Assembly: GCA_030537335.1 (NCBI GenBank)
Contig: JAUNNK010000010.1
Coordinates: forward strand, 1 to 38,065
Length of the DNA: 38,065 nucleotides
From: Clostridia bacterium
Lineage (GTDB): Bacteria; Bacillota; Clostridia; Christensenellales; Aristaeellaceae
Direction of reading: 5' to 3'
Shown: positions 15,314-33,488 of the stretch, in pieces
Numbering within the stretch: position 1 is the stretch's first letter
Layout of the letters: the number at the start of each line of letters is the position of its first letter
The notes under the pieces: model-generated
What the model saw: the letters and a program-made list of their open reading frames with translations, nothing else
Database searches by the model: none
What the model was told of the DNA's origin: nothing
Program-made: the position numbers and the translations under genes

Positions 15314-15333
15314 ATGGACAGACAATCCGTGCG

Positions 15334-17127: not shown

Positions 17128-17160
17128 CTTCATAACCTCCTGTTGTCTGGCGATGGTTTC

Positions 17161-17188: not shown

Positions 17189-17199
17189 TCAGCAGAAAC

Positions 17200-17230
17200 G
17201 GCCCCGTGATGAAAGTTTCATCATGGGACC
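17200..17230. promoter_or_regulatory. Long palindrome between tetR and the ohyA promoter
   Basis: TGATGAAA (17207-17214), one central G, and TTTCATCA (17216-17223) form a perfect 8+1+8 palindrome. Pairing continues through CCC/GGG and GG/CC to 17200-17230. It lies just upstream of the ohyA -35 box and 40 bases after the tetR stop. It may be a TetR operator, a terminator for tetR (weak T tract), or both. Confidence 0.55.
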
Positions 17231-17271
17231 GCAGGTGTATAATCTTTTATCAAATCATGGAAAATGATGCA

Positions 17272-17826: not shown

Positions 17827-17934
17827 TTTCGCATTCCCTCCTCATGAACCGCAGTTTATATATTATGCAGGTTACGGCCCGCCTTCGCAACCGAAACACG
17901 TTTCCTCTTTTATTCCTCTACATGCACACACTGC

Positions 17935-18747: not shown

Positions 18748-18785
18748 ATGCCCTCCGAAAAAGCAGAATTGTTATCCTTATCAGC

Positions 18786-18814
18786 ATTATAGCATATTCC
18801 GCCCGTTAAAAGTA
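18786..18814 (-). promoter_or_regulatory. Promoter of the AraC gene
   Basis: On the minus strand TATAAT at 18791-18786; 17 bases upstream the -35 position reads TACTTT (18814-18809), a weak match. It overlaps the rightward promoter back to back, so the two are probably controlled together. Confidence 0.5.
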
Positions 18815-18825
18815 GATGGTATAAT
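18797..18825 (+). promoter_or_regulatory. Activator-dependent-looking promoter of the second TRAP operon
   Basis: Perfect TATAAT (18820-18825); at the 17-base spacing the -35 reads TTCCGC (18797-18802), far from consensus. The missing -35 fits dependence on the divergent AraC regulator. Confidence 0.6.
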
Positions 18826-18846
18826 ATGAATAAATAATTCCATATT
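18823..18846. promoter_or_regulatory. Inverted repeat over the transcription start of the 18878 operon
   Basis: AATATG (18823-18828) and CATATT (18841-18846), with an AT-rich 12-base middle. It sits at and just after the expected start site, where a repressor rather than an activator would usually bind. Confidence 0.4.
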
Positions 18847-18877
18847 CGTAAAATTACAGGAAGGGGATGTGTCGTAT

Positions 18878-19870
18878 ATGCATGCAATATTAAATGGAAA
18901 AGACGAGAATCTGCTTTGGACCGAGGTCAAGAAGCCCGAAATTGGCGAGAATGCCGTTCTTTTGCAGGTCTATGCTGCCGGCGTGAATCGTGCAGATTTG
19001 TTACAGCGCGCAGGCCAGTATCCCCCGCCGCCCGGATGGCCGGACTGGTTTGGTCTGGAAGCTGCCGGCGTCATCGAGGCAGTGGGTGCGAAGGTTGCAG
19101 CGGACGGCAAGTGGCACGTGGGCGACAGGGTCTGCGCATTGCTCGGCAGCGGCGGCTATGCGGAATACGTTTCCATTCCTGAAGAGTTGCTGATGCCCAT
19201 CCCGAAGGGCTTGACGATGGTCGAAGCAGCGGGGCTTCCCGAGGTCTACGGCGCAGCCTACCTCTTCCTGTGCATGGAAGGCAAGCTGAAGGAGGGCGAC
19301 ACGCTGCTGGTTCAGGCTGGAGCAAGCGGACTGGCCAGCGTGATGATCCCCATGGCGAAGGCGCTGGGAGCGCGCGTGATCACGACTGTGATGAACGATG
19401 AGCTCGAGGCAAAGATCGCGCACCTGCCTGCGGACATCGTTGTGAACACCTCGAAGCAGTCGCTGGCGGAGGTCATGAAGGCGGAGTTGGAAGCCGGTCG
19501 CGGCGTGGACGTCTGCGTGGATTGTCTGGGCGGTGCAATGGTTGGCGAATGCCTGCCATACATGAGTTTTGACGGACGCTGGATCATGATTGCAACCCTG
19601 GCGGATGATTTCACCAACGTCAACATGCGCTCCATGTACGCGCGCAGAACACGCCTGATCGGTACGAATCTGCGTTCGCGCACACCTGCGCAAAAGAAGC
19701 AGCTTCTGACGGAAATGACGGAAATGCTCTGGCCCAAGGTGGAAAGTGGTCTGGTCCGGCCGACCATCTTCGCGGTGTTCCCCATCGAACAGGCCGAAGC
19801 AGCACATGAACTGATGCGCACCGGCAAGAGTGCCGGCAAGATGGTATTGGTTGTAAAGGAGGATGTATGA
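18878..19870 (+). CDS. Zinc-independent MDR oxidoreductase (quinone-oxidoreductase-like)
   Basis: 330 residues. Medium-chain dehydrogenase/reductase of the quinone oxidoreductase type, which reduces quinones or activated C=C/C=O bonds with NAD(P)H and has no catalytic zinc. Evidence: MHAILNG start matching the family MKAI, AAGVNRADLLQRAGQYPPPPG, GLEAAGVIEAVG and GDRVCALLGSGGYAEYV. The cofactor region LLVQAGASGLASVMIPMAKALGARVITT (AGASGLAS) and CVDCLGGAMVGE follow. The ATG at 18878 aligns with the family start; a GTG at 18869 is also in frame but only 4 bases from AGGAAGG. It is the first gene of the operon and overlaps the TRAP small subunit by ATGA. Confidence 0.88.
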   Translation: MHAILNGKDENLLWTEVKKPEIGENAVLLQVYAAGVNRADLLQRAGQYPPPPGWPDWFGLEAAGVIEAVGAKVAADGKWHVGDRVCALLGSGGYAEYVSIPEELLMPIPKGLTMVEAAGLPEVYGAAYLFLCMEGKLKEGDTLLVQAGASGLASVMIPMAKALGARVITTVMNDELEAKIAHLPADIVVNTSKQSLAEVMKAELEAGRGVDVCVDCLGGAMVGECLPYMSFDGRWIMIATLADDFTNVNMRSMYARRTRLIGTNLRSRTPAQKKQLLTEMTEMLWPKVESGLVRPTIFAVFPIEQAEAAHELMRTGKSAGKMVLVVKEDV

Positions 19871-20358
19871 GAAAGGTAGTCGATGGTCTTATGAAGGTCA
19901 TTCAGAGGATCATGGGCGCGCTGCTGGCCTGTGCGGTACTGCTGGTGCTTGTGCAGGTGTTCTTCCGCTATCTCCTGAAAGCCCCCTTGGGATGGACGGA
20001 TCAGCTCTGCCGCTTCCTGTTTGTCTGGATTGTCTTTCTGGGTTTGCCCGTGCTGTTCCATAAGAAGGCCGCCACTGCATTTGATCTGCTCAGCAGCCAC
20101 CTGAAGGGACGTCCGCACGAGATTTTGCAAATGGTGATCTGTCTGCTGACCGCAGTTTTTGCAATTGCATTCTTCATCTTCAGCTGGCAGTTCATGATGA
20201 AGAAGGGGCATCAGATGATCCCCGCCTTCCGGGTGATTCCCTACTACGCAGTGTATGCATCCATGCCCCTGAGCGCGGTGCTGCTGTTCGTGGAAGAGGT
20301 GCTTCAGTTCTCTGAGGCGCTGGTCAATACCTTTAAGGGAAAGGAGGAGAAGGCCTGA
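19867..20358 (+). CDS. TRAP transporter small membrane subunit, DctQ-type (second system)
   Basis: 163 residues with four predicted membrane helices. Conserved features are FRYLLKAPLGWTDQLCRFLFVWIVFLGLP (compare WRWILNNPIVWSEEL in the first system) and AFRVIPYYAVYASMPLSAVLLF. The start at 19867 overlaps the stop of the preceding gene (ATGA) and follows AAAGGAGGATGT. It overlaps the DctM start by one base (TGATG). It belongs to a second complete DctQMP set that is distinct from the one at 12433-15248. Confidence 0.88.
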   Translation: MRKVVDGLMKVIQRIMGALLACAVLLVLVQVFFRYLLKAPLGWTDQLCRFLFVWIVFLGLPVLFHKKAATAFDLLSSHLKGRPHEILQMVICLLTAVFAIAFFIFSWQFMMKKGHQMIPAFRVIPYYAVYASMPLSAVLLFVEEVLQFSEALVNTFKGKEEKA

Positions 20359-21625
20359 TGGTACTGATTTGCTGCATCCTGTTCTTCCTGCTCCTGTTCT
20401 GCTCCGTACCGATCTTCATTGCGCTGGGCGTTCCCTGCGCGATGTGGTTCGTGGATTCCGGAACGTCCTTCGTCACCTTCGCGCAGAAATTCTTCAACAG
20501 CTGCGACAGCTTTGCCATGCTGGCGATCCCGTTCTTCATGCTTGCGGGCAACATCATGGAAAAGACGGACATTACGCAGTCGCTGCTGGATCTGGCGAAT
20601 GCTGCGGTCGGTTGGATTCGTGGCGGCATTGCGCACACGGTTGAGCTGGCCGGCATCCTGCTGGCAGGTCTTTCGGGCTCCTCCAATGCCGACACACCTC
20701 CGCTCTGGCGGTGCTGACGCTGGATCCGCTGCGCAAGAGCGGCTACAGCGACGGCTGGGCGAACGCCATCGTCGTTTCTGCTGGCTCCATCGGCCCCATC
20801 ATTCCGCCGAGCATCTCCATGATCGTCTTTGCGAATGCGGTCGGCCTGAACGTTGGTGATCTGTTCATGTCCGGCGTGCTGCCCGGAATCCTGATCGGCG
20901 TGGGTTACATGATCGTGTGCTACATCTACGCCAAGCGTCACAATGTAAAGCGCGAACCGTTCAAGGGCCTGCGCCACCTTGCCAGGACTTTCCTCAAGGC
21001 CTTCTGGGCGCTGCTGATGCCGATCATTATCATCGGCGGCATCCTCTCCGGCATCTTCACCGCCACGGAATCCGGCGTCATCGCCGTTGTGTACGGCGTG
21101 ATCTACGGCTTCATCCGAAGAAAGCTCAACGCGAAGGTGCTGGGCGAGTGCGTGGTCAACGCCGCCCAGGCCTCCGTTGGACCCGTGACGCTGGTTGCGG
21201 TTTCCTCCGTGTTCAGCTACATGCTGGCGCGCGCGGGCGTTGTCGCCGCAATCGGCGATTTTGCCCAGAACAGCATCGCCACCCCGGCACTGTTCATGAT
21301 CTTCAACATTCTGGTGTGCTTCATCGCAGGCTGCTTCGTGGACGCGACGGCGACGATGCTTCTGCTCGGCCCGATTATGCTTCCGATTGCAACCTCCATG
21401 GGCATCAATCCCCTGCATTTCGCCTGTGTATTCGTTCTGTCGAACATCATGGGCGGCATGACCCCGCCGGTCGGCACGCAGCTCTTCGTGATCACCGCGA
21501 TCTCCAAGACGCTGATCACGAAAATCATCAAGCCCATGCTGTGCTTCATCCTGGTGTACGTGCTTGCGCTGATCATCATCACGCTCGTCCCAGCTTTGGC
21601 AACCTGGATTCCTTCGTTTGCGTAA
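20358..21625 (+). pseudogene. TRAP transporter large subunit, DctM-type, frameshifted
   Basis: Two overlapping frames rebuild a normal DctM of about 422 residues. The first (20358-20717) gives FAMLAIPFFMLAGNIMEK and ends GLSGSSNADTPPLWRC-stop. The second carries on as ALAVLTLDPLRKSGYSDGWANAIVVSAGSIGPIIPPSISMI and runs to 21625 with FTATESGVIAVVYG and MGGMTPPVGTQLFV. One base is missing near 20697-20703, in GACACACCTCCGC, where GSSNAD should lead to a small-residue stretch. Everything else, including codon coupling on both sides, is intact. This is a very recent mutation, a sequencing error, or less likely a recoding site; I see no slippery heptamer. If real, the second TRAP system is dead. 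Confidence 0.85.
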
Positions 21626-21627
21626 TA

Positions 21628-21643
21628 AACCGCTCAAGCGGTT
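21628..21643 (+). other. Short intercistronic palindrome
   Basis: AACCGCTCAAGCGGTT between the DctM stop and the DctP ribosome binding site. Such a hairpin could stabilise or uncouple the binding-protein message so that it is made in excess. Confidence 0.4.
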
Positions 21644-21661
21644 AAGAAAAGGAGAATCATC

Positions 21662-22684
21662 ATGAAGAAAGTCCTCGTTCTGATCCTCGTCGCACTGATG
21701 TGCATGCAGTGCGCAGCCCTTGCAGAGTCGGAGCAGACCTACGATCTGAGCAGCTGCGAACCGCTGAAGATCACCCTGCCCCTGCCCAACGGCATCACCG
21801 CCATCGATACCGTCTACACCGAGCAGTGGATGGAAATGATCACCGAGCGCTCCAACGGCCTGATTACCTTCGACTATTCCAACTCCGCCGCCCTCGGCTC
21901 CGCACTGGAGCTGATGGAGGGTGTTGACATGGGCGACTACGACATGTCCGTAATCGACCTGGCCAACTTCGACGCCTATGTTCCGCAGGTCGACGTGCTG
22001 TGCCTGCCCTACATCATCAAGGACTGGGACAATGCCCGCGCGGTCTACATGGGTGAGCCCAACGCGTGGATCACCGGCCTGATCAGCGAGAACATGGACA
22101 TCACCGTTCTGGGTACCATCGGCATGGGCTTCCGCAGCGTCATCTCCAAGGATCCGCTGACCTGCATCGCCGATTGCAAGAACTACCTCATCAGAACGCC
22201 TGATCTGGAGCTGTACATCGACGCGCTTGGCTCTCTGGGCTTCTCCTGCACCTCCATGTCCTTCTCCGAGACCTATTCGGCCATCGAAGCCGGCGTCATC
22301 AACGGCATGGAGACCACGCTGAATGTGCTCTATGACAACGGCTACTATGACGTTGCCAAGTACATCCTGCAGACCCGCCACTTCTTCGCCTGCTCAGAGG
22401 TCATCGTGAACACCTCCTTCTGGGAGGAACTGCCGGAGGTCTATCGCAGCATCATCGCCGATTCCTTCAAGGAAATCGAGGCAGCTGCATGGGATTATGC
22501 GCAAACCACCGAGGAGAGCATGGTGCCCAAGTTCGAGGAGAAGGGCGTCACGGTCTACGAGTTCTCCGACGAGGATCACGTCGAGATCCTGAACATCTTC
22601 TCGGACTACTGGCGCGAGAAGGCCGTCAAGATGGGCGAAGGCGCCGACGAGATGATCGAGACCCTGATTGCTATGCAGCAGTAA
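21662..22684 (+). CDS. TRAP transporter solute-binding protein, DctP-type (second system)
   Basis: 340 residues with a type I signal peptide (MKKVLVLILVALMCM... cleaved after AALA at about 21) and no lipobox. DctP family features are ITLPLPNGITAIDTVYTEQWMEMI, a region around GFRSVISKDPLTCIADCKNYLIRTPDLELY, which holds the expected arginine in YLIRTP, and AIEAGVINGMETTLNVLY. The ATG follows AAAAGGAGAA. It would deliver its ligand to the DctQM pair directly upstream. Sequence is clearly different from the DctP at 14301, so a different substrate is expected. Confidence 0.9.
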   Translation: MKKVLVLILVALMCMQCAALAESEQTYDLSSCEPLKITLPLPNGITAIDTVYTEQWMEMITERSNGLITFDYSNSAALGSALELMEGVDMGDYDMSVIDLANFDAYVPQVDVLCLPYIIKDWDNARAVYMGEPNAWITGLISENMDITVLGTIGMGFRSVISKDPLTCIADCKNYLIRTPDLELYIDALGSLGFSCTSMSFSETYSAIEAGVINGMETTLNVLYDNGYYDVAKYILQTRHFFACSEVIVNTSFWEELPEVYRSIIADSFKEIEAAAWDYAQTTEESMVPKFEEKGVTVYEFSDEDHVEILNIFSDYWREKAVKMGEGADEMIETLIAMQQ

Positions 22685-22752
22685 TCAAATCGCAGGGCTG
22701 GCGGGGGCAGGGTATGAACGCTCTGCCCCCGTCTGCCAATTGGGAGGAAGAA

Positions 22753-23781
22753 ATGTTGACAGGAAAGCAGATTGTATTTACTGCAGTGAATACGGCGGAA
22801 GTGCTGGATGTGGAGATTGGCGCACCGGAAGCGCATCAGGTCATCGTAAAAATGGCATATACCACGATCAGTCAGGGCACGGAGCGCGCAAACATCACCG
22901 GAAATCTGGATGTACACGCCTTCATGCCTCGTCCGAGCGAGACGCCCATCTTTCCGCGCTACGGCGGCTACAGCGACGCAGGTACGGTGGTCGCCATTGG
23001 AGAAGCCGTCACCAACTTCAAACCGGGCGACCGGGTTGCAGGCTGGTGGGGGTCGCACAAGAGCTACTGTGAATTCCCGGACAGCAACCTGATCAAGCTG
23101 GATGACGAAATTCCCTTCAACGCCGCGTCCGTTGCGCACATCGCATGCTTCCCGATGGGCGCCATACGCAAGGTTCGTCTGGAGGTTGGCGAGGCGGCAG
23201 TCGTCATGGGTCTGGGGATACTGGGCGTGCTGGCGGTAAAGGAGCTGCGCGCGGCAGGCGCGGTTCCCATCATTGCGGTGGACCCTGTGGAAAGCAGGCG
23301 CGCATTTGCCCTGAAGCAGGGTGCGGATGTTGCCCTCGATCCCAACGATGCGGATTTCGTTGAACAGGTGAAGGCACTGACTGGAGGAGGCGCGCAGGTC
23401 GCCATCGAAGTGACAGGCATCGGTAAGGCCCTCGATCAGGTGCTGGACGTGATGCGTCCGCGCGGCAGGGTTGCGCTTCTGGGCTGCACGCGCAACAAGG
23501 ATTTCACGATTGATTATTATCGGAAGGTGCATGCGCCGGGTGTGACGCTGATTGGCGCGCACACCGCTGCCCGCCCTGAAACGGATTCCTATCCGGGCTT
23601 CTGGACGGTGCGAGATGAGATGGACGCCATTCTGAAGCTGCAGAAGGGCGGCCGGCTCGATCTGCAGAGCATTATCTCCGAGGTGCATTCACCCCTTGAA
23701 GCGCCGGAGGTCTATCGCCGCATGCTCACGGAGCGCGAATTCCCCATTGGCGTACAGTTCGACTGGTCGATGCTTGAATAG
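22753..23781 (+). CDS. MDR-family (alcohol-dehydrogenase-like) oxidoreductase without catalytic zinc ligands
   Basis: 342 residues. The N-terminal GroES-like part has TTISQGTERANITG and GYSDAGTVVAIGEAVTNFKPGDRVAGWWGSHKSY. The Cys and Glu/His zinc ligands of classical alcohol and sorbitol dehydrogenases are not seen there. The cofactor domain shows AAVVMGLGILGVLAVKELRAAGA (GLGILG) and IIAVDPVESRRAFALKQGAD, with the Asp after the second strand favouring NAD. The family includes Zn-binding-like bi-domain oxidoreductases found with Gfo/Idh/MocA proteins, and one follows 16 bases later. GGAGGAAGAA precedes the ATG. It probably oxidises or reduces a hydroxyl of the imported compound. Confidence 0.85.
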   Translation: MLTGKQIVFTAVNTAEVLDVEIGAPEAHQVIVKMAYTTISQGTERANITGNLDVHAFMPRPSETPIFPRYGGYSDAGTVVAIGEAVTNFKPGDRVAGWWGSHKSYCEFPDSNLIKLDDEIPFNAASVAHIACFPMGAIRKVRLEVGEAAVVMGLGILGVLAVKELRAAGAVPIIAVDPVESRRAFALKQGADVALDPNDADFVEQVKALTGGGAQVAIEVTGIGKALDQVLDVMRPRGRVALLGCTRNKDFTIDYYRKVHAPGVTLIGAHTAARPETDSYPGFWTVRDEMDAILKLQKGGRLDLQSIISEVHSPLEAPEVYRRMLTEREFPIGVQFDWSMLE

Positions 23782-23796
23782 ATTGTAGGTGATGAT

Positions 23797-24843
23797 ATGC
23801 CCAAAAAGCTCAGGGTGGTACAGATTGGAACGGCGCACGATCACGCTGCGGATCATGTCGATACGATACGTGCGCTGAATCAGGATTATGAGCTCGTCGG
23901 CGTGTGTGAACCGGATGAACAGCTTCGTGAAGCAGCCAAGCTGCGCATCAGCTGCGACGGCACGTACAGAAGCTATGCGGATGTGCGCTGGCTGACCATG
24001 GAGGAAATCCTCGGCATGGAGGATCTCGATGCAGCGATTATCGAAACCGGGGAGCTGGATCTGGTTCGCTATGCGCAGCAGATCGCGGATAAGGGTCTGC
24101 CCATTCACATGGACAAGCCCTGCGGCGAAAACTACGGGGAGTTCAAGCATCTGGTCGATACCATGCGGGAAAAGAAGCTCCCGCTGCACATTGGATATAT
24201 GTATCGCTACAACGAGGCCGTGAAGTATTGTCGGCAGTTGAAAGAGGAAGGCAAGCTGGGCGAAATCTTTGCCGTTGAAGCGCAGATGAGCGTACTCCAT
24301 GATATCCAGAAGCGCCAATGGCTCAAGCGCTTCAAGGGCGGCATGATGTTCTTCCTTGGCTGCCATCTTGTGGACATCGTCTATTCGATGTGTGGAGAGT
24401 GCGAGGACATTCTCCCGCTGAATACCTCAACGCACAATGAGGGCGTGGACAGCGACGATTACGGCTTCGCGGTATTCCGATACAGAAATGGAATTTCCTT
24501 TGTCAAGGCCTGCGCCGCCGAGGTCAATGGCTTTGGAAGAAGACAGATCGTCGTGACCGGTACAAAGGGAAGCGTTGTCATTGAGCCCATTGAGCAGCGC
24601 ACCGGAGGGCCGCAGGTCGAAACCTATGTGACGGCGCATGTGACCTTCTACGATGAAGGTATTCAGCACAGATTCGGAAACTCCGGGACGGACATGACCT
24701 TCGGTCCCTTCGGAAGATATACGGAAATGATGGAAGATTTTGCGCAGATTGTGCGCGGCGAACAGGAGAATCGCTTCAGCTACGAGGATGAGCTCGCCGT
24801 ACAGCGCATGCTTCTCAAGGCCTGTGGAAACTGGAAAGGATAA
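23797..24843 (+). CDS. Gfo/Idh/MocA-family NAD-dependent dehydrogenase
   Basis: 348 residues. The N-terminal Rossmann domain (KLRVVQIGTAHDHAADHV) departs from the usual GxGxxG because AHDH follows the first glycine. The hallmark lysine is in MDKPCGENYGEF (near residue 107), equivalent to EKP of the family. The C-terminal domain carries GGMMFFLGCHLVDIVYSMCG, matching the substrate-binding GG..D.G.H..D pattern. Members oxidise or reduce sugars, inositols and sugar acids, or act as hydrolases through an oxidise-eliminate mechanism. It sits between an MDR protein and an epimerase-like protein, so a multi-step redox rearrangement of the imported molecule is plausible. The ATG at 23797 has TAGGTGATG upstream. 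Confidence 0.88.
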   Translation: MPKKLRVVQIGTAHDHAADHVDTIRALNQDYELVGVCEPDEQLREAAKLRISCDGTYRSYADVRWLTMEEILGMEDLDAAIIETGELDLVRYAQQIADKGLPIHMDKPCGENYGEFKHLVDTMREKKLPLHIGYMYRYNEAVKYCRQLKEEGKLGEIFAVEAQMSVLHDIQKRQWLKRFKGGMMFFLGCHLVDIVYSMCGECEDILPLNTSTHNEGVDSDDYGFAVFRYRNGISFVKACAAEVNGFGRRQIVVTGTKGSVVIEPIEQRTGGPQVETYVTAHVTFYDEGIQHRFGNSGTDMTFGPFGRYTEMMEDFAQIVRGEQENRFSYEDELAVQRMLLKACGNWKG

Positions 24844-24848
24844 AATTG

Positions 24849-25880
24849 ATGAAGAAAATCATGCTTTTAGGCGGCAGCGGAGCCCTGGGTTCTTATCTTA
24901 CGCCGATGCTGCTGGACATGGGTTTCCGCGTACATGTGGTTTCGCTGGATGAACTGCAGTCGGCCAATGAAAATCTGACCTATGAGAAGGCGAATGCAAA
25001 GGATGATGCGTGGCTGCGCGAACGCCTGAAGGATGGCTTCGACGCCATTGTGGACTTCATGATCTACTCGACGAAGGAGTTTCAACCGCGGGCAAAGCTG
25101 TTGATGGAGAACACAGGGCATTACGTATTCCTGTCCTCCTACCGCGTATATGCCGATGCGAAGGGAATCATCACCGAGGATTCGCCGCGCCTGCTGGATG
25201 CATTGAAGGACGACCCCGCCTTTCTTGCCACGGACGATTACGCGCTCGCAAAGGCGCGTCAGGAGGACATCATTCACGCAAGCGGCTGCAAGAACTTTAC
25301 GATTCTGCGTCCGGCACCTACCTTTTCCAGGCTGAAATATCAGCTGATATCCATGGAGGCAAATTCCTTTATCAACCGGGCACTGGAGCATCGCACGGTT
25401 GTCCTGCCGGAGCCTGCGCTCGACAAGCAGGCCACGATGAACTGGTCGGGCGATGTGGCGAAGATGATTTCCAGACTGGTTTTCAATCCGGCGGCAATGG
25501 GTGAGACCTACAGCATCGCAACCGCGGAGCATCACAGCTGGCGGGAGATCGCGGATTACTACAAGGAGATCATCGGGATGGAGTATATCGGCACAGATAT
25601 TGATACCTTCCTCGACATTTTCGACAAGCATACCGATTGGGGCCGCTGGCGTCTGATGTATGACCGGATGTACGACCGCGTAATTGACAACAGCAAGGTT
25701 CTGCGGGACACCGGACTCACACAGGCGGACTTCATGCCGCTCAAGGATTCCCTGCGTCTGGAGCTTTCCCAGCTGCCGGAGGATCCCTCCTGGTGTCATT
25801 TCTCAGTCGCAACCATTATCTATGAGGACATCAACCGCCGCATGGATGAATATGTTGCGACGGGCAAGTATGAATTGTAA
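24849..25880 (+). CDS. NAD-dependent epimerase/dehydratase-like (extended SDR) protein
   Basis: 343 residues. The dinucleotide motif is GGSGALGSYL at the N-terminus (residues 8-17). The SDR catalytic pair is Tyr 131 and Lys 135 (YALAK), and FLSSYRVYAD before it holds the serine. The remainder (FTILRPAPTFSR, NWSGDVAKMISRLV, YSIATAEHHSWREIADYYKEI) fits NAD-dependent nucleotide-sugar epimerases and related reductases, although no nucleotide-sugar genes are nearby. In this operon a free sugar acid or lactone is the likelier substrate. The ATG at 24849 is preferred to the TTG at 24846. It is the last gene of the operon; the repeat hairpin at 25935 follows. Confidence 0.85.
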   Translation: MKKIMLLGGSGALGSYLTPMLLDMGFRVHVVSLDELQSANENLTYEKANAKDDAWLRERLKDGFDAIVDFMIYSTKEFQPRAKLLMENTGHYVFLSSYRVYADAKGIITEDSPRLLDALKDDPAFLATDDYALAKARQEDIIHASGCKNFTILRPAPTFSRLKYQLISMEANSFINRALEHRTVVLPEPALDKQATMNWSGDVAKMISRLVFNPAAMGETYSIATAEHHSWREIADYYKEIIGMEYIGTDIDTFLDIFDKHTDWGRWRLMYDRMYDRVIDNSKVLRDTGLTQADFMPLKDSLRLELSQLPEDPSWCHFSVATIIYEDINRRMDEYVATGKYEL

Positions 25881-26520: not shown

Positions 26521-27762
26521 ATGAACAGAGCCACCAAGATCCTGAGCCTGGTTCTCATCCTGGCGCTGGCGTTGACCTGCGCCGCGGCCTTTGCCGAGGA
26601 GGAGCGCGCCGCGGAGTACTTGTCCGAGTACTACAACATTCCCGCCTTCGAGGAAACCGCCTCTCTGGAGGCCTTCAACGACGCGCTGTCCGCGCTGGGC
26701 CAGGAGCCCATCGCAGCCGAGACGCTGACCGTTGAGGATGCCGTCGTCGCCGCCATCAAGCTGGCCGACATGGAAGCGCTTGCGCTGACCTACATCAACG
26801 ACGACGCGCCCGACAAGGCTGCAAACGTGCTGGCCGAGGAAGGCGTCGAGGTCGACGAGGCCTATGCGCCCTACGTAGCCTGCGCCCTCGAGCTCGATCT
26901 GATCGACGACGAGGATCTCGCCGCCGACGCGCTCTCCGGCGAAACCGCTGCCGAGCTGCTCTATGGCGCCGCCGAGATCGCTGGCATGGGCCGCCACTAC
27001 ATCGGCCGCGTCAGCGACGACGACATCTTGACCACCCTGAAGTCCACCCTGGATTCCTTCATCATCTTCGACGAAGAGCAGCTGACCAACCTGGGCACCG
27101 AGATCGTGCTGCGCGGCGCGACCACCGGCTACAATCTGAAGTATTCCGGCTACGACGCCCACTTCCTGGAGGAGTACACCCTCAAGTACGGCCACAGCGA
27201 CATCACCCATGCGCTTCAGCTGATCGCGCTGCTGGACAGCGAGGGCTACGACGCCTACATCCAGATCGAGCCCAAGGTGTCCGTTTACGAGTACATGATC
27301 GAGTGGGGCGAGCCCGGCGATCCCACGCCCACCTACGCCGTCAAGCAGGTGACCGAGGACCGCTATCTGTGCTATGCCGTCGAGTACGACATGCTGATTG
27401 AATTTGAAACCATCGAGGAGAAGGAGTCCTTCCACTCCCTGATCGAGACCTACGCCAAGAAGTATGACGATTCCTTCGACGCCGACGGCAACCTCGTCGA
27501 GAAGCTGCTCTCCGGTTCCTGGTGGCAGCCCCTCTACTCCTCCACCACCGAGATGGAGAACGAGGAATTCGGCCTGCTCTACGACAACGTGATCTACGAC
27601 GCGACCGGCTCCTACTCCATCCATCCCTTCTCCCTCCCCGACGCCACCCAGGCCATTGCCGACGTGGTTGCCGAGGTTGCCCCGGAGCTCTCCGTCAGCC
27701 TGGTCGAGATTCACGTCAATCCCGCCTTCTACCGCTACATCACCGGCACTGACCATCAGTAA
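26521..27762 (+). CDS. Very acidic secreted protein, possible SLH-like N-terminal region
   Basis: 413 residues. A type I signal peptide (MNRATKILSLVLILALALT..., cleavage after AFA at about 25) is followed by EEE. The mature protein is strongly acidic with few lysines and arginines. Residues about 45-145 form two repeating helical units (LTVEDAVVAAIKLADMEALALTYI..., YAPYVACALELDLIDDEDL) that resemble degenerate S-layer-homology repeats. The rest has no domain I recognise; it contains alternating strands with WWQPLYSSTTEM and a C-terminal VSLVEIHVNPAFYRYITG. It has GAGGAGGAAA before the ATG, its own promoter, and a terminator at 27804, so it is a single-gene unit. Role probably at the cell surface; function unknown. 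Confidence 0.75.
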   Translation: MNRATKILSLVLILALALTCAAAFAEEERAAEYLSEYYNIPAFEETASLEAFNDALSALGQEPIAAETLTVEDAVVAAIKLADMEALALTYINDDAPDKAANVLAEEGVEVDEAYAPYVACALELDLIDDEDLAADALSGETAAELLYGAAEIAGMGRHYIGRVSDDDILTTLKSTLDSFIIFDEEQLTNLGTEIVLRGATTGYNLKYSGYDAHFLEEYTLKYGHSDITHALQLIALLDSEGYDAYIQIEPKVSVYEYMIEWGEPGDPTPTYAVKQVTEDRYLCYAVEYDMLIEFETIEEKESFHSLIETYAKKYDDSFDADGNLVEKLLSGSWWQPLYSSTTEMENEEFGLLYDNVIYDATGSYSIHPFSLPDATQAIADVVAEVAPELSVSLVEIHVNPAFYRYITGTDHQ

Positions 27763-27803
27763 CAGGCAGTGCCCGCAGCTGCTTGCCGCTGCGTATATGT
27801 GAC

Positions 27804-27838
27804 GAATCCCGGATTTCTGCAATGGAAATCCGGGATTC
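27804..27838 (+). terminator. Terminator-like hairpin after the acidic secreted protein
   Basis: GAATCCCGGATTT (27804-27816) and AAATCCGGGATTC (27826-27838), a perfect 13-base stem with a 9-base loop; tail TGTGTTGTCT is only moderately U-rich. The remaining spacer to 27992 shows nothing else. Confidence 0.7.
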
Positions 27839-27992
27839 TGTGTTGTCTCCAGACAGGCATTCCAAAAGGGGCTGTCGTAAGACAAGCTGAAACGCCCGGA
27901 ATGGGCATTTGATTCCCTTCAGAAGATGTGCCCTGGAGAAGCCCCTGCGCTCGCCCGCGGCGGATCAATCCTGCATTTCAGCAGAGTTTCCC

Positions 27993-28760
27993 TTACAATA
28001 TATTCAGACCCGCAATGTGCCACTCGTCTGCGAGCCTGGCGTCGGTGATCAGGCTGTGGATCGCCGTCAGCGGCGCGATGCCGAAGAAGGAGGTCACGTC
28101 GATCTTGCTGTGATCCACCAGCAGCACGGCGTGTTCGCTGCGCTGAATCAACAGCTTGCGAAAGAAGGCTTCCTCCTCTGAAGTGTCGCTCAGCCCGTTT
28201 TCCAGGCTCACGCCCCTGCAGGAGAAGAAGGCATAATCGAAGTGGAACAGGGAGAGGTTTTGCAGCGCGATGGGGCCGATGTAGGACAGGCTGTTGCCGC
28301 GCAGGCAGCCGCCCACGCAGAAGATCTGCGCGTCCTTCAGCCGGGATAGCTGCAAACTGGTCTGCGCACCATCGGTCACGATGCGCAGATTTTTTTTGTT
28401 TGCGAGAAAGGGCGTCATCAGCGTTGCGGTGGAGGAGGAATCGATGAAGATGGTGTTTCCATCCTTCACCATGCCCGCCGCCTTGCGCGCGAGTTCCCGC
28501 TTGATCTCGCGGAATGCGGTTTCGCGCACGTACAGCGGAATCTCCGCCTGCAGGCCCTCCATCGCCGCCGCGCCGCCGTGCACGCGAGTGATCTGCCCAG
28601 CCTTGGCCAGCGCGTTCAGGTCGCGCCGGACGGTGGCTTCGTGCAGGTAGAAGGCTTCCGCCAGCTGCTTCACCGAGGCGCTGCCGTGGCGGTTGACGTA
28701 CTCCAGCATCCGCTGCTGCCGCTGAAAGGGCGTGAGATCACTTTGTTCAATATTGCTCAT
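27993..28760 (-). CDS. DeoR-family transcriptional regulator
   Basis: 255 residues. The N-terminal winged helix has TPFQRQQRMLEYVNRHGSASVKQLAEAF, recognition helix HEATVRRDLNAL (40-51) and wing GQITRVHGGA (56-65), typical of DeoR repressors. The C-terminal sugar-phosphate-isomerase-like sensor domain (about 75-235) includes IFIDSSSTATLM, RIVTDG, CVGGCLRGNSLSYIGP, FFSCRGVSLENGLSD and AVLLVDHSKI. DeoR proteins usually sense a phosphorylated intermediate. The ATG at 28760 is preferred: AAGGTGG lies 6 bases upstream, while a GTG at 28769 overlaps that site. It diverges from the activase/GRE/SDR operon and probably represses it through the palindrome at 28816-28830. Confidence 0.9.
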   Translation of the reverse strand: MSNIEQSDLTPFQRQQRMLEYVNRHGSASVKQLAEAFYLHEATVRRDLNALAKAGQITRVHGGAAAMEGLQAEIPLYVRETAFREIKRELARKAAGMVKDGNTIFIDSSSTATLMTPFLANKKNLRIVTDGAQTSLQLSRLKDAQIFCVGGCLRGNSLSYIGPIALQNLSLFHFDYAFFSCRGVSLENGLSDTSEEEAFFRKLLIQRSEHAVLLVDHSKIDVTSFFGIAPLTAIHSLITDARLADEWHIAGLNIL

Positions 28761-28814
28761 TTTAACCACCTTGAACGTCCATAAATGTCATTTACGCCGT
28801 TTGATCGCCAGTTA

Positions 28815-28843
28815 TTGACGTATTTCGTCAGATATCATACAAT
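28815..28843 (+). promoter_or_regulatory. Promoter of the glycyl radical enzyme operon
   Basis: TTGACG (28815-28820) and TACAAT (28838-28843) with a 17-base spacer; the leader to the ATG at 28882 is about 30 bases. Confidence 0.75.
28816..28830. promoter_or_regulatory. Putative DeoR operator
   Basis: TGACG-tattt-CGTCA, a perfect 5-base inverted repeat that overlaps the -35 box of the GRE operon. A protein bound there would block RNA polymerase, as expected for the divergent DeoR repressor. Confidence 0.5.
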
Positions 28844-28881
28844 ATTGCCCGTAAAGCTGTCAAGCGGTTTTGAGGTGCGCA

Positions 28882-29775
28882 ATGATCGGACATATCTTCA
28901 ATATTCAGAAATTTTCCCTGCACGACGGGCCGGGCATCCGGACGACGATCTTCTTCAAGGGCTGCAACCTGCGCTGCAGCTGGTGCGCCAATCCGGAGTC
29001 CCAGCAGATGCGCTCCCAGCTCACGCTGGATCGGGAAAAGTGCGCCGGCTGCGGAAGCTGCGCGGCCCTGTGTCCCTCGGAGGCCCGCGTGATGACGGAC
29101 GCTTATCCGGTGCTTGACTCTGAGGCATGTACGCTCTGCGGGCGCTGCGTGGAAGCCTGTCCAAGTCGGGCCATCGGCAGAGAGGGCAACGACATGACCG
29201 TGGAGGAGGTCCTCCGCGAGGCGCTGAAGGACGCCGCATTTTACCAGCAGTCCGGCGGCGGAGTCACCTTCTCCGGCGGAGAGCCGCTGCTCCAGCAGGA
29301 GTTTGCAACCTCTCTGGCGCGGTCGCTGCATGAAAACGGCGTTCCAGTCGCAATCGAGACCGCAGCCGCCGTTCCCAGCGAACGCTTCCGCGCGTTTCTG
29401 CGGGAGGTGGATTACGTGCATGTGGATCTGAAACACTACGACAGCGCCCGCCACCGCGCCGGTACCGGCATGGAAAATGAACAGATCATCGAAAACATCT
29501 GCGCCGTCCGCGACAGCGGCCTGCCCTATCTGGTTCGGATTCCGGTGATTCCGGGCTTCAATGCGTCCCTGGAGGACGCGGAGGGCTTTGCGGGGCTGCT
29601 CGCTTCCATCGGCGTCGGCCGCGTTCAGCTGCTGCCCTTCCACCAGCTCGGAGAGCGGAAATACAGCCTGCTGGGCAGGGAATACGCCCACGCCGGTCAG
29701 CCGCAGCTGCACAGAGAGGACCTGAAGCAATACCAGCAGATCATGCTCCGGCACGGTCTGGATGCACTGCTCTGA
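28882..29775 (+). CDS. Glycyl-radical-enzyme activating protein (radical SAM)
   Basis: 297 residues. It cleaves S-adenosylmethionine to abstract a hydrogen from the glycine of its partner enzyme, here the GRE at 29792. The radical SAM motif CNLRCSWC (Cys 28, 32, 35) binds the first [4Fe-4S] cluster; FSLHDGPGIRTTIFFKG precedes it as in PflA-type activases. Two extra ferredoxin-type cluster motifs follow (CAGCGSCAALCP, CTLCGRCVEACP). These mark the activases of GRE dehydratases/lyases rather than of pyruvate formate-lyase. VTFSGGEPLLQ contains the SAM-binding GGE. The ATG at 28882 follows GAGGTG; an upstream in-frame TTG (28870) is less likely. The GRE gene follows 16 bases later. Confidence 0.93.
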   Translation: MIGHIFNIQKFSLHDGPGIRTTIFFKGCNLRCSWCANPESQQMRSQLTLDREKCAGCGSCAALCPSEARVMTDAYPVLDSEACTLCGRCVEACPSRAIGREGNDMTVEEVLREALKDAAFYQQSGGGVTFSGGEPLLQQEFATSLARSLHENGVPVAIETAAAVPSERFRAFLREVDYVHVDLKHYDSARHRAGTGMENEQIIENICAVRDSGLPYLVRIPVIPGFNASLEDAEGFAGLLASIGVGRVQLLPFHQLGERKYSLLGREYAHAGQPQLHREDLKQYQQIMLRHGLDALL

Positions 29776-29791
29776 TTGAAGGAGGAAAAAC

Positions 29792-32188
29792 ATGGAACAC
29801 TTTGGCACTTCCACCCGGAGAATTCAGAAATTCCGCAGCGCGCTTCTGAACATCGAGCCCGCTGTGTGCACAGAGCGCGCCGTGCTGGCCACCCGCGCCT
29901 ACAGGGAGCATGAGATGGATCAGGTCGTGCTCAAACGCGCCTACATGCTCAGGGAAGTTCTGGAGAACATGACCATCTACATCGAGCCGGAGACGCTCAT
30001 CGTGGGCAACCAGGCCAGCGAAAACCGCGCCGCGCCCATCTTCCCGGAGTACGCCATGGATTGGGTGATTCGCGAGCTGGACGATTTTGACAGGCGCACC
30101 GGCGAACGCTTCACCATCTCCGAGGAAAACAAGCAGGTGCTGCGGGACATCTATCCCTACTGGAAGGGCCGCACGCTTCAGGATAAGGCCTACGCCGCCT
30201 ATCCGGAGCAGGCGAAGCGGATTTACGACCTGGGCATCATCCGCAACGAGGGCAACATCACCTCCGGCGACGCCCACCTGGCCGTAGACTACGACAGCGT
30301 GCTCAGAAAGGGCCTGAAGGACGTGCGCAGGCGCGCACAGGAGGCGCTGGACAAGCTGAATCTGGCGGACTATGAGAGCATGAAGCACAGCTTCTTCTAT
30401 CGCGCCATACTGATCGTGATCGACGCGGTGGAGCGCTATGCCAGGCGCTATGCCGATCTCGCCGGAGAGCTGGCCGAGAGCGCAACGGAGGAGCGCGCTG
30501 CGGAGCTGCGGGAGATCGAGCGCATCTGCCGCAAGGTGCCCATGGAGCCCGCACACAGCTTCCACGAGGCGCTGCAGAGCGTGTGGTTCCTGCACGTGAT
30601 CCTCCAGATCGAATCCAACGGTCATTCGCTCTCCTTCGGCCGCTTCGATCAGTTCTGCTATCCCTACTATCGCAACAGCCTGGACGAGGGCGCGGATCCG
30701 GCCTACCTGGAGGAGCTGCTGGAAAACCTGTGGCTCAAGAGTCTCACCGTCAGCAAGATTCGCTCCGCCGGGCACAGCCGCTTTCAGGCGGGCAACCCCA
30801 TGTACCAGAACGTGACCATCGGCGGCCAAACTGCGGATGGCAGGGATGCGGTGAACGAACTCAGCTGGGCGGTGCTGCGCTCGGTGGCCCGGGTGCGCAT
30901 GCCCCAGCCAAACCTCACCGTGCGCTACTTCTCCGGCATGAGCCGCGAATTCATGGCGGAGTGCATCGAGTGCATCCGTCTGGGCTTCGGCATGCCAGCG
31001 TTCAACAACGATGAGATCATCATCAAATCCCTCACCGATCGGGGCGTGACCCTGGAGGACGCGCGCAACTATGCCGCCATCGGCTGCGTGGAGGTGGGCG
31101 TGCCCGGCAAGTGGGGCTACCGCTGCACGGGAATGAGCTATCTGAACTTCCCCAAGACCCTGATGACCGCGCTGAACGACGGCGTGGATGTGAACACCGG
31201 AAAGAAGATCTGCCAGGGATCGAGCCACTTCCGGGATATGGAAAGCTTTGAGGATGTGATGAAGGCCTGGGACGCCACCGCAAGGCAGCTCATCCGGGTG
31301 GGCGTGACGCTGGACAACTGCGCCGATCTGGTGGTGGAACAGGAGGTGCCGGACATCCTCTGCTCCGCGCTGGTGGACGACTGCATTGCGCGCGGCAAGC
31401 ACCTCAAGGAGGGCGGCGCCCATTACGACATCATCTCCCAGCTGCAGGTGGGCGTTGCAAATCTCGGCGACTCCCTTGCGGCGATCAAAAAACTGGTGTA
31501 TGATGAGGGCAGGATTTCCCGCGACGAACTATGGAACGCGCTCATGACGGACTACGAGGGTGCAGACGGCGAGCGCATCCGCCGGATGCTCCTGGACGCG
31601 CCCAAGTTTGGTAACGACGACGATTATGTGGATCAGCTGCTGGTGCGGGCCTACGACACCTATCTGGACGAGATCAGACACTACCGCAACACGAGGGACG
31701 GGCGCGGCCCCATCGGAGGCGGCTACTTCGCGGGCACATCCTCCGTGGCTGCAAACGTGCCCCAGGGTGCGGGCACCTGCGCCACGCCCGACGGCAGAAA
31801 GTGGGGCGACGCGCTGGCGGAGGGCTGCTCTCCGGCACATTCCATGGATCAGAACGGCCCCACCAGCGTATTCAAATCCCTGTCCAAGCTCAGGACCGAC
31901 CAGATCTTCGGCGGCGTTCTGCTGAATCAGAAGGTCACGCCGGCGCTGCTGGAGCGGGAGGAGGATCGTGTGAAGCTGCAGCTGCTCATTCGCACCTTCT
32001 TCGATGTGCTGCACGGCTGGCATGTGCAGTACAACGTGGTCTCCAGGGAGACCCTGCTGGACGCCCAGAGGCATCCGGAGAAGCATCAGGATCTCATCGT
32101 GCGCGTGGCGGGCTACTCTGCGTTCTTCAACGTGCTCTCGCCGCAGACCCAGAACGACATCATCGCCAGAACCGAACAGCAGTTTTAA
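29792..32188 (+). CDS. Glycyl radical enzyme (PFL2/dehydratase-lyase family), substrate unknown
   Basis: 798 residues, full length for the family. The glycyl loop RVAGYSAFF puts the radical glycine at Gly 774. The thiyl Cys and base Glu are Cys 432 and Glu 434 in GCVEVGVPG. His 162 lies in GDAHLAVDY, the position of the conserved histidine of glycerol and propanediol dehydratases. After the GCVE motif, however, the sequence reads KWGYRCTGMSYLN. In those diol dehydratases a WHDAAFFN-type segment supplies an Asp; here that Asp is missing and an extra Cys is present. So it is probably neither a standard glycerol/propanediol dehydratase nor pyruvate formate-lyase (which has adjacent cysteines). 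An AAGGAGG site precedes the ATG. It is followed by an SDR and regulated with its activase by the DeoR at 27993. Confidence 0.92.
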   Translation: MEHFGTSTRRIQKFRSALLNIEPAVCTERAVLATRAYREHEMDQVVLKRAYMLREVLENMTIYIEPETLIVGNQASENRAAPIFPEYAMDWVIRELDDFDRRTGERFTISEENKQVLRDIYPYWKGRTLQDKAYAAYPEQAKRIYDLGIIRNEGNITSGDAHLAVDYDSVLRKGLKDVRRRAQEALDKLNLADYESMKHSFFYRAILIVIDAVERYARRYADLAGELAESATEERAAELREIERICRKVPMEPAHSFHEALQSVWFLHVILQIESNGHSLSFGRFDQFCYPYYRNSLDEGADPAYLEELLENLWLKSLTVSKIRSAGHSRFQAGNPMYQNVTIGGQTADGRDAVNELSWAVLRSVARVRMPQPNLTVRYFSGMSREFMAECIECIRLGFGMPAFNNDEIIIKSLTDRGVTLEDARNYAAIGCVEVGVPGKWGYRCTGMSYLNFPKTLMTALNDGVDVNTGKKICQGSSHFRDMESFEDVMKAWDATARQLIRVGVTLDNCADLVVEQEVPDILCSALVDDCIARGKHLKEGGAHYDIISQLQVGVANLGDSLAAIKKLVYDEGRISRDELWNALMTDYEGADGERIRRMLLDAPKFGNDDDYVDQLLVRAYDTYLDEIRHYRNTRDGRGPIGGGYFAGTSSVAANVPQGAGTCATPDGRKWGDALAEGCSPAHSMDQNGPTSVFKSLSKLRTDQIFGGVLLNQKVTPALLEREEDRVKLQLLIRTFFDVLHGWHVQYNVVSRETLLDAQRHPEKHQDLIVRVAGYSAFFNVLSPQTQNDIIARTEQQF

Positions 32189-32203
32189 ACGGGAGGAAGA
32201 CCA

Positions 32204-32944
32204 ATGAAGGATAGATTCGAGCACCTGCATGGCAGGACAGCCATCGTGACCGGCGCGGCCGGGGGCATCGGCGAGGCCCTGTGCCGCAGGCTCGCCGGGT
32301 ATAAAATGAATCTCGTCATCACGGGCCGCAAGGCGGAAACCCTGAAGGCGCTTTCGGACAGCCTGCGCGCCGAGGGCGTCCAGCTGTGCGAATGCGTGGG
32401 CGATCTGGCGGACATGACCTTCATCGATTCTGTGTTCGCCGCCGCGCGGGAGCACTTTGGCGGCGTGGACGTGCTCATCAACAATGCGGGGCTGGTGCAC
32501 AACTGCACCGTGGAGGAGATGACGCCCGAGCTCTTCGATTCCATCATGCAGGTGAATGTCCGCGCGCCCTACTTCATGTGCCAGAAGGCGCTGCCGGATC
32601 TCAGGAAGTCCAATTGCGCCACCATCATCAACATCTGCTCCGTGGTTGCCCACAAGGGCTATCCGCGCCAGAGCGTCTATGCCGCCAGCAAGCACGCGCT
32701 GCTGGGCCTGTCCAAGTCCCTGGCCAACGAGGTCTACAGGGACAACATCCGCGTGCACGTCATCAGCCCCGGCAGCGTATTCACGCCCATGATCGCCAAG
32801 GTGCGCCCGGATCTCACGCCGGAGGGAATGATGCTGCCGGAGGACATCGCCAGCGTCGTGGGCTTCTATCTGGAAATGCGCACCTCCAACGCCGTGGTGG
32901 ACGAGATTCAGCTGCACCGCGTCAACAAGGAGCCCTTTGCCTGA
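32204..32944 (+). CDS. Short-chain dehydrogenase/reductase of the GRE operon
   Basis: 246 residues, classical SDR. The cofactor motif TGAAGGIG is near residues 17-24; ITGRK after the second strand has Arg where NADP-preferring members often have it. NNAG, the catalytic Ser in NICSVVAHKG, and Tyr 159 / Lys 163 in YAASK are all present, so it should be active. It begins 15 bases after the GRE stop with GGGAGGAAG and is the last gene before the terminator at 32974. It most likely reduces the aldehyde or ketone formed by the GRE, or oxidises a hydroxyl to make the GRE substrate. Confidence 0.9.
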   Translation: MKDRFEHLHGRTAIVTGAAGGIGEALCRRLAGYKMNLVITGRKAETLKALSDSLRAEGVQLCECVGDLADMTFIDSVFAAAREHFGGVDVLINNAGLVHNCTVEEMTPELFDSIMQVNVRAPYFMCQKALPDLRKSNCATIINICSVVAHKGYPRQSVYAASKHALLGLSKSLANEVYRDNIRVHVISPGSVFTPMIAKVRPDLTPEGMMLPEDIASVVGFYLEMRTSNAVVDEIQLHRVNKEPFA

Positions 32945-32973
32945 TAACTGTCATTCTATTGCGGACGCAGTAA

Positions 32974-33017
32974 GCAAAAATGCCAACCGATTTGATCCTT
33001 TCGGTCGGCATTTTTGC
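32974..33017. terminator. Bidirectional terminator
   Basis: GCAAAAATGCCAACCGA (32974-32990) pairs with TCGGTCGGCATTTTTGC (33001-33017) with one mismatch. A-tract before and T-tract after the stem let it work for both the GRE operon and the convergent minus-strand genes. Confidence 0.9.
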
Positions 33018-33041
33018 ATTTGCAGGCTTTGTCAGTGGTCT

Positions 33042-33068
33042 GAAGCGAGGGAACCTCTCCCCCGCTTC
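33042..33068 (-). other. Hairpin after the DUF2871 gene
   Basis: GAAGCG/CGCTTC arms with GGG/CCC pairing inside, directly beyond the stop of the 33075 gene on the minus strand. No T tract. Confidence 0.35.
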
Positions 33069-33074
33069 CAGTTT

Positions 33075-33488
33075 TCAGTTCTTCGCCAGCTTCCTCAGGG
33101 AGAGCAGCAGCAGGATAATCCCCGCGCCGGTCAGGATGTGGCTCGCGCCCGCGATTCCCGAGATGGAGGCGCTGGCGGCTGCGGACAGGCCCCTCCCCAG
33201 CGCCTGAAAGACGCCGCGCACGACCATCATCGCCGCGGTCAGCACAACGCCGATGTTGTAGCACCACAGAAAGGCGCGGAAGCTCCTGAGCTTCCCGAGC
33301 TCATTGTGCGCCGCGTACAGCGCGACCAACAGATACACCAGCATGCCCAGCAGGAACAGGTGCGTGTGCACCTTTCCCAGCACCGTCACGCCGCTGAAAT
33401 GGTTGAATTTCGTAAATTCCCGGTAGAATACGCCGCCGGCCATCGCAGCAAGGGCATAGGCCAGAGCAATGTTCAGATACTTCTTCAT
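33075..33488 (-). CDS. DUF2871-family small membrane protein
   Basis: 137 residues, four predicted membrane helices (about 5-22, 42-62, 72-92, 108-132). The opening NIALAYALAAMAGGVFYREFTKFNHF and GKVHTHLFLLGMLVYL are typical of DUF2871 proteins of Firmicutes. The histidines in KVHTHLF lie at a membrane edge and could bind a metal or heme, but no function is established. The ATG at 33488 overlaps the upstream stop by one base (TGATG) and follows GGAAGGAGAA. It forms a two-gene unit with the next membrane protein. Confidence 0.8.
   Translation of the reverse strand: MKKYLNIALAYALAAMAGGVFYREFTKFNHFSGVTVLGKVHTHLFLLGMLVYLLVALYAAHNELGKLRSFRAFLWCYNIGVVLTAAMMVVRGVFQALGRGLSAAASASISGIAGASHILTGAGIILLLLSLRKLAKN

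Follow-up and report, generated by a model that had tools for sequence, protein, structure and literature searches.

A probable variant of the YbiW glycyl radical pathway in a Clostridia bacterium

We analyzed a 38,065-nucleotide stretch of DNA (contig JAUNNK010000010.1 of assembly GCA_030537335.1, Clostridia bacterium, Aristaeellaceae), referred to here as the window, and in particular a four-gene cassette in which deoR is divergent from three genes on one strand that encode an activase, a glycyl radical enzyme (GRE) and a short-chain dehydrogenase/reductase (SDR). Judging from sequence comparisons and gene neighborhoods, this operon is probably a variant of the YbiW pathway in which radical cleavage of a C-O bond is kept and the substrate, the regulator and the partner enzyme are changed. 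The specific reading that we favor, and to which we give about an even chance, is that the GRE would be a YbiW-like radical C-O lyase, that its substrate would be some polyol or anhydropolyol but not 1,5-anhydroglucitol-6-phosphate, and that the SDR would reduce the resulting ketone. Overall identity would label the GRE as YbiW, or as pyruvate formate-lyase, the current RefSeq product name of ybiW. If the reading is true, a recently explained sugar pathway has been rewired via a few pocket positions, a regulator and a downstream enzyme, and the clade of SDR-linked GREs points to an as yet unrecognized polyol fermentation; because two of the carriers are named as Diplocloster strains, the clade could be tested in culture.

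The cassette and its kinship to YbiW

The four genes of the cassette are the following.

27993..28769, minus strand: DeoR-family regulator, 258 amino acids from a GTG start (the original prediction had used the ATG start at 28760)
28882..29775, plus strand: GRE-activating radical-SAM enzyme with two ferredoxin-type motifs, from an ATG start (alternative TTG start at 28870)
29792..32188, plus strand: YbiW-type glycyl radical enzyme of the SDR-linked clade, 798 amino acids (Pfam, NCBIfam, trees)
32204..32944, plus strand: classical SDR oxidoreductase, 246 amino acids (Pfam, motifs)

Gaps of 16 bp (activase/GRE) and 15 bp (GRE/SDR) separate the three codirectional genes, which lie behind a single promoter-like site ahead of the activase gene. 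In Pfam, the GRE matches PFL-like (697.5 bits) and Gly_radical (111.6 bits), the activase matches radical SAM and, in two stretches, Fer4, the SDR matches adh_short and falls into the classical SDR class, and the regulator matches HTH_DeoR (68.1 bits) and the DeoRC sensor (151 bits), as befits the DeoR family. With scores far beyond chance, these genes are real, and the open reading frames (ORFs) together with Pfam bear out the original prediction of a DeoR regulator divergent from activase, GRE and SDR.

The residues that had been assigned to the GRE in that prediction, namely, Gly774, Cys432, Glu434 and His162, were all located, and the enzyme additionally has His278. The Gly774 loop (RVAGYSAFF), Cys432, the Gly_radical match and the position of the activase gene 16 bp upstream argue for membership in the GRE superfamily. 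The solved structure closest in sequence is 6xs4 (911 bits), which carries the name formate C-acetyltransferase, followed by 8id7 and 8yjn, two chains named YbiW (899 bits); E. coli ybiW shows 51% identity to the window GRE by tblastn. It scores 941.6 bits against TIGR01774 (PFL2-3; cut-off 678.2), which places it in the YbiW-type clade, and it groups with YbiW-type enzymes in both trees described below. The motif GCVE is followed by VGVPGKWGYRCTGM, and the window segment GCVEVGVPGKWGYRCTGM corresponds, almost letter for letter, to GCIETAVGGKWGYRCTGM in the solved YbiW chains. The segment after GCVE is therefore not peculiar to the window GRE, and the claim that it marks an uncharacterized subfamily is not supported, YbiW being an enzyme of reported function. 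The companion claim, that the GRE is not a glycerol or propanediol dehydratase, holds: in place of the Asp-bearing stretch of those enzymes, the segment after the cysteine reads GKWGYRCTGM. High identity to a GRE of known function had been named as the outcome that would overturn the proposal of a different substrate, and it was found in part only, with 51% identity to YbiW on the one hand and a changed pocket, regulator and set of partner enzymes on the other.

Other assignments within the superfamily were tried and set aside. The window GRE lies under every listed NCBIfam equivalog cut-off, including those for HypD, CutC, sulfopropanediol dehydratase and the arylacetate decarboxylases. Glycerol and propanediol dehydratases were rejected as well; their solved members score 650 and 548 bits, respectively, compared with 899-911 bits for the YbiW-type chains. 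Isethionate lyase IslA (7kq3) scores 369.7 bits. With HypD, the window GRE shares the superfamily and an alignment in which the substrate-binding columns can be matched; it differs in scoring 553.5 bits against a cut-off of 1100 and in being only 36% identical to L102, a HypD.

According to a passage in PMC12441222 that cites Ma et al., YbiW and PflD cleave 1,5-anhydroglucitol-6-phosphate and 1,5-anhydromannitol-6-phosphate to 1-deoxyfructose-6-phosphate, the substrates having first been phosphorylated by the phosphotransferase system (PTS). In E. coli, ybiW-ybiY adjoin fsaA, and pflD adjoins the frw PTS genes, with ptsA, fsaB and gldA alongside. This gene order agrees with the subsequent steps, in which, as the primary YbiW study reportedly describes, the aldolase FSA cuts 1-deoxyfructose-6-phosphate and GldA reduces hydroxyacetone. 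The window cassette thus has in common with E. coli YbiW 51% identity, the Cys loop GC[IV]E..V.GKWGYRCTGMS, the catalytic Cys, Glu, His and Gly, and a paired activase, but differs in having an SDR where YbiW has FSA, in having no kinase or PTS gene, in three residues discussed below, and in a DeoR of another kind. Among the papers listed on SDR-linked or DeoR-linked GREs, none deals with this cassette, judging by titles and the opening of the abstracts, and a passage of a review of gut metalloenzymes (PMC11574389) makes no mention of YbiW.

The SDR-linked clade, its neighborhoods and its pocket positions

Relatives of the cassette were collected by a pattern scan of 84,980 genomes, and the best 80 of at least 559 were used. 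At seven of these 80 loci (L006-L011 and L016), an SDR gene lies directly downstream of the GRE gene. For the phylogeny, three partial ORFs (a second copy in L071 and those of L005 and L004) and the copies of the window (L001 and L088) were dropped and identical rows were merged, leaving 110 GREs. The window GRE and the seven SDR-linked GREs formed one clade in the FastTree tree of all 110 rows (support 100, starred) and again in an IQ-TREE quick analysis of 38 selected rows (100, starred). A sister clade of six (L012-L015, L017 and L018; support 94 by FastTree) is joined to it in a 13-row group (97, starred, IQ-TREE quick). These six enzymes, 63-70% identical, lack the SDR, retain the Ser/His/Ser set described below and, in five of six cases, have a ROK kinase gene just upstream. 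Outside both clades, E. coli YbiW forms a long branch, the exact placement of which is not settled in the IQ-TREE tree. Two members of the SDR clade, 77% identical, belong to genomes that bear the names Diplocloster modestus and D. agilis; among 300, 391 and 397 genomes searched, no SDR-clade GRE turned up other than those of the window's own genome and this Diplocloster pair, and a 66% partial match in G383 is apparently the sister-clade locus L018.

Because mechanical gene calls miss some genes, tblastn was used to count neighbors up to 3 kb away from the GRE. An SDR was detected at all seven SDR-clade loci, at none of the six sister loci and at one of the 67 other YbiW-type loci (L032, a weak match on the opposite strand). 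FSA was found at 0/7, 0/6 and 22/67, and ROK at 0/7, 5/6 and 36/67 of these loci, respectively. Either of the two accompanies 57 of the 73 GREs outside the SDR clade (5/6 sister loci and 52/67 of the rest) and none of the seven within it. The activase gene is ahead of the GRE gene at all seven SDR-clade loci, and a deoR gene is in front at five (L006-L010), encoding proteins 45-62% identical to the window DeoR; L016 is cut off upstream and L011 shows no DeoR. The GRE thus belongs to a distinct clade with conserved SDR (7/7) and DeoR (5/7) neighbors, as had been anticipated.

The comparison of pocket positions covered 89 of the 110 GREs (8 of the SDR clade, 6 of the sister clade and 75 others), rows below 58% identity being omitted except for E. 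coli YbiW. Among the rows with a letter at the given position, 196 positions are invariant in the 81 YbiW-type enzymes outside the SDR clade, and all eight SDR-linked GREs depart from the invariant residue at precisely three of them. In window numbering, with the equivalents in the 810-residue E. coli YbiW (printed as 336, 387 and 663 by the alignment scripts, which start counting at residue 3), they are the following.

Q332 (A in the other seven): Ser to Ala/Gln, YbiW S338
F380: His to Phe, YbiW H389
A653: Ser to Ala, YbiW S665

In addition, A436 is replaced by Gly in seven of the eight (G436 in the window). The first of the three positions has a counterpart of established role: according to PMC7077986, Ser334, Tyr450 and Thr645 of HypD are within hydrogen-bond distance of the substrate carboxylate, and the S334A variant is inactive. 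The local HypD sequence, taken from the primers given in that paper, matches L102, which passes the HypD cut-off. In an alignment that omitted the 24% identical GRE of L008, HypD Ser334 aligns with window column 332, Tyr450 with M448 and Thr645 with V652, adjoining A653, so that at least the first of the changed positions serves to bind the substrate in a related enzyme. It is plausible that the phosphate of 1,5-anhydroglucitol-6-phosphate would lie at this position.

An extra set of 19 rows with at least 55% identity, at least three of which (L089, L091 and L114) probably come from the same genomes as L019, L043 and L041, retained S332, H380 and S653 in 17, 17 and 18 rows, respectively. In L118, the first Ser is replaced by Asn and the last by Ala; its stretch contains no FSA or ROK, but the GRE is at a contig end. 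All three changes together were seen only in the SDR clade among the sequences compared. Since the window GRE (Q332/F380/A653) lacks the Ser/His/Ser set of the 81 YbiW-type enzymes, E. coli YbiW included, and since, of the partners expected at a 1,5-anhydroglucitol-6-phosphate lyase locus (FSA and/or a kinase or PTS), neither FSA nor ROK was found up to 3 kb away at the seven SDR-clade loci, we do not file it under that activity. The substrate probably differs from that of YbiW, the nearest characterized enzyme, which upholds the different-substrate proposal of the original prediction.

The regulators and the SDRs of the clade are distinctive as well. Six SDR-clade DeoR proteins, including that of the window, differ from 56 DeoRs of other loci at many otherwise conserved positions of the sensor, for example, ESGS to DSSS and GxDG to SCRG or SCHA, and thus the inducer is probably another one than at the other YbiW-type loci. 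The earlier suggestion of a sugar-phosphate-like inducer is weakened by this divergence and by the lack of a kinase or PTS gene in the cassette; a DeoR-type sensor as such is present. The window SDR contains TGAAGGIG, NNAG and N118-S146-Y159-K163, and TGxxxGxG, NNAG and the Asn-Ser-Tyr-Lys set are invariant in all eight aligned SDRs, which also share the C-terminal signature AV[VI]DEI.[LV]HR..K.PF. After the second strand, three of them have Arg (GRK or GRR; GRK in the window) and five have GG[KN], with no Asp in any; by the general rule on the residue at this place, we infer that these SDRs are of the NADP(H) type.

Alternative readings of the pathway

Under the reading that we favor, the activase would put the radical on Gly774, from which it would pass to Cys432, and the thiyl radical would take a hydrogen next to a C-O bond of the polyol or anhydropolyol. 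Glu434, His162 and His278 would act as acid and base, and breakage of the C-O bond would yield a ketone, which would be a 1-deoxy-ketose if ring-opening of the YbiW type is kept. Reduction of this ketone to a deoxy-polyol by the NADP(H)-type SDR would provide an electron sink in place of the aldolase cut by FSA in the YbiW pathway, and DeoR would repress the operon until the GRE substrate or its product is present. As a more speculative elaboration, which we hold to be rather doubtful, the cassette could be a kinase-free offshoot of anhydropolyol fermentation in which the GRE acts on an anhydropolyol without a phosphate, and the 1-deoxy-ketose formed by ring-opening is reduced by the SDR to a deoxy-polyol, an electron sink without glycolytic yield, with the same SDR subfamily being recruited repeatedly by several lineages. 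At the seven SDR-clade loci, tblastn over 3 kb to either side of the GRE detected no linked ROK kinase, and the window cassette contains no kinase or PTS gene, a systematic PTS search at the clade loci not having been made. L008 does have an APH-family phosphotransferase gene, some 6 kb downstream.

The eight carrier genomes were searched for the remaining genes of the YbiW pathway. Four of them (G691, G692, G694 and G695) have no match to TIGR00875 (FSA), to Pfam TAL_FSA or, at E <= 1e-30, to a GldA-like query. In the window's own genome, TIGR00875 gives only a partial match of 36.9 bits, TAL_FSA one distant protein (109 bits), and the GldA-like query 31% identity at best. A further carrier, G693, has, on another contig, an ordinary YbiW-type GRE (59-60% identity) with ROK, activase and FSA besides its SDR-clade GRE, and hence keeps both systems.

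Several observations weigh against our reading. On one side, the available sequence falls short of 3 kb at three of the seven SDR-clade loci. FSA-family and GldA-like genes do occur at other places in the genomes of the carriers G689, G690 and G693, and the absences in other carriers may be gaps, since the titles mark the majority of the eight genomes as metagenome bins or the like; the completeness figure at hand, 90%, is for the window's own genome only. With respect to the pocket, changed residues occur in L147 (H to F), L153 (S to G, H to W) and L120 (S to G, H to F; 46% identity), all of which adjoin FSA (seen in stretches L202, L201 and L205, respectively), so that loss of the Ser or the His is compatible with the aldolase pathway. 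The stronger formulation, that three invariant phosphate-site residues have been lost, was accordingly rejected.

The SDR itself also provides counterarguments. Stand-alone relatives, about 40-71% identical, occur in 4 further genomes among 250 in the Diplocloster family (E <= 1e-55) and, at the level of the class, in 10 genomes among 291 besides the window's own (E <= 1e-60), with an iron-alcohol-dehydrogenase gene, read as GldA-like, next to the SDR gene in L163 and various genes elsewhere; as far as the comparison is possible, none of these genomes is listed with an SDR-clade GRE. Moreover, the GRE-linked SDRs do not form a single clade, which was rejected with an approximately unbiased (AU) test p of 0.0002, at least three changes being forced by starred branches. 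Together with the stand-alone relatives, this suggests that the SDR may be a general reductase. The same topology implies either that the GRE gained a partner from this SDR subfamily on more than one occasion or that the two became separated, and repeated recruitment, if it occurred, would speak for a functional tie.

One alternative, which we regard as unlikely, is that the GRE is an ordinary 1,5-anhydroglucitol-6-phosphate lyase with the kinase and aldolase encoded elsewhere in the genome and the SDR standing in for GldA as the hydroxyacetone reductase. It would accommodate the 51% identity to YbiW, the nearly identical Cys loop, the single pocket changes in FSA-linked relatives, the GldA-like neighbor of the SDR relative in L163, and the FSA-family and GldA-like genes of G689, G690 and G693; however, half of the carrier genomes, drafts as they are, lack a TAL/FSA or GldA match, the window's own genome has no FSA proper, the triple pocket change was seen only in the SDR clade, and G693 maintains a separate ordinary copy.

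Dehydration of an open-chain polyol, deoxyhexitol or hydroxy acid, with ring-opening abandoned, appears improbable. The B12-independent glycerol and propanediol dehydratases belong to the same superfamily and couple radical C-O cleavage to subsequent reduction by a dehydrogenase, a reaction class that they have in common with the pathway proposed here, and in L008 an L-rhamnose isomerase gene, starting about 13 bp after the SDR stop codon, hints at a deoxy sugar. The window GRE, however, lacks the Asp-bearing segment and has the Cys loop and catalytic residues of YbiW, and the isomerase gene adjoins the GRE cassette in only one of eight carriers, a single case on account of which it was rejected as a general part of the pathway.

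Least probable of all, with a slender chance at best, is that the SDR acts before the GRE, reducing 1,5-anhydrofructose or a similar ketone and thereby supplying the anhydropolyol for opening by the GRE: the NADP(H)-type motif fits a reductase, and Gfo/Idh/MocA-type oxidoreductases, a family that includes anhydrofructose reductases, are found near 6 of 80 YbiW-type loci (clusters c22 and c26, one member of each scanned), but the gene order is GRE then SDR, and further use of the product would require a kinase and an aldolase, neither of which is at the locus.

DNA elements and further observations

The intergenic and downstream elements of the cassette are listed below; their functions are putative.

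28782..28794, no strand: palindrome TAAATGTCATTTA, candidate operator
28815..28843, plus strand: sigma-70-like promoter-like site TTGACG-17-TACAAT, putative operon promoter
28816-28830: palindrome TGACGTATTTCGTCA, overlapping the -35 box of the operon promoter-like site
28834..28863, minus strand: promoter-like site TTGACA-18-TATGAT, putative deoR promoter (promoter scan)
32981..33015, plus strand: intrinsic-terminator-like hairpin with T run at the end of the operon (fold -17.5 kcal/mol)

The counterpart of the first palindrome is ATGTTAAAT at L006, L007 and L009, and L006 and L007 have TTGACA-17-TACAAT within the corresponding intergenic region. The promoter scan of 27700-33300 gave 3 promoter-like sites compared with a mean of 1.3 in shuffles. 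The hairpin has a loop of 10 and was not listed by the terminator scan, which had a loop limit of 8. Recent transfer of the cassette, considered on the basis of base composition, was rejected: its GC content and its GC content at third codon positions (GC3) resemble those of the other window genes tried.

The original prediction had noted the lack of microcompartment genes. This stands for the window as scanned, where Pfam searches of the four cassette proteins and of 20 other ORFs, out of 109 mechanical ones with a length of 100 amino acids or more, found none; the statement does not extend to the whole genome, in which no search was made. ABC sugar-transport genes are near the cassette in L006, L007 and L010 and, by sequence reading, in L008; none was found among the scanned neighbors of the window cassette, and TRAP transporter genes lie farther off in the window. 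These are part of a long sugar-acid-type region (10659-25880) with two HpcH/HpaI aldolases, the TRAP transporter components DctM and DctP, zinc dehydrogenases, a Gfo/Idh/MocA protein and an epimerase. Within its bounds, at 15334-17133 on the minus strand and opposite a long mechanical ORF, is an MCRA-family protein (Pfam, 693 bits), which we take to be oleate-hydratase-like.

The ferredoxin-type insert is present in the activases of the window, L006 and L007; those of L008, L009, L010 and L016 (249-261 amino acids) have no CxxCxxCxxxC motif, which, by this crude pattern, is missing in 33 of 62 activase ORFs over the loci. Just upstream of the cassette in L008 (1064-6114) are a very distant GRE (657 amino acids, 24% identity) with its own activase and a 709-amino-acid protein without any Pfam or NCBIfam match. 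A separate group of GREs, 36-38% identical to the window GRE, was seen in L002 and L003, from the window's own genome, which thus holds two such enzymes, and in L013, L014, L032 and L045; the four scanned (L002, L003, L013 and L045) score 755-789 bits against the PflD model (cut-off 1109). In L013, L014, L032 and L045, genes for an activase and a conserved protein about 600 amino acids long (cluster c17) come after the GRE of this group.

Distant relatives of the SDR (40% identity) in L196, L197 and L198 adjoin two oxidoreductases and a small Cys-rich protein, a three-gene set that, we presume, resembles the anaerobic glycerol-3-phosphate dehydrogenase operon. Finally, Gfo/Idh/MocA-type oxidoreductases occur near ordinary YbiW-type GREs in L012, L013, L053, L029, L037, L051 and L166 (L012 and L029 by domain scan, L166 by sequence reading and the remainder by cluster) and are candidates for making or altering the anhydropolyol.

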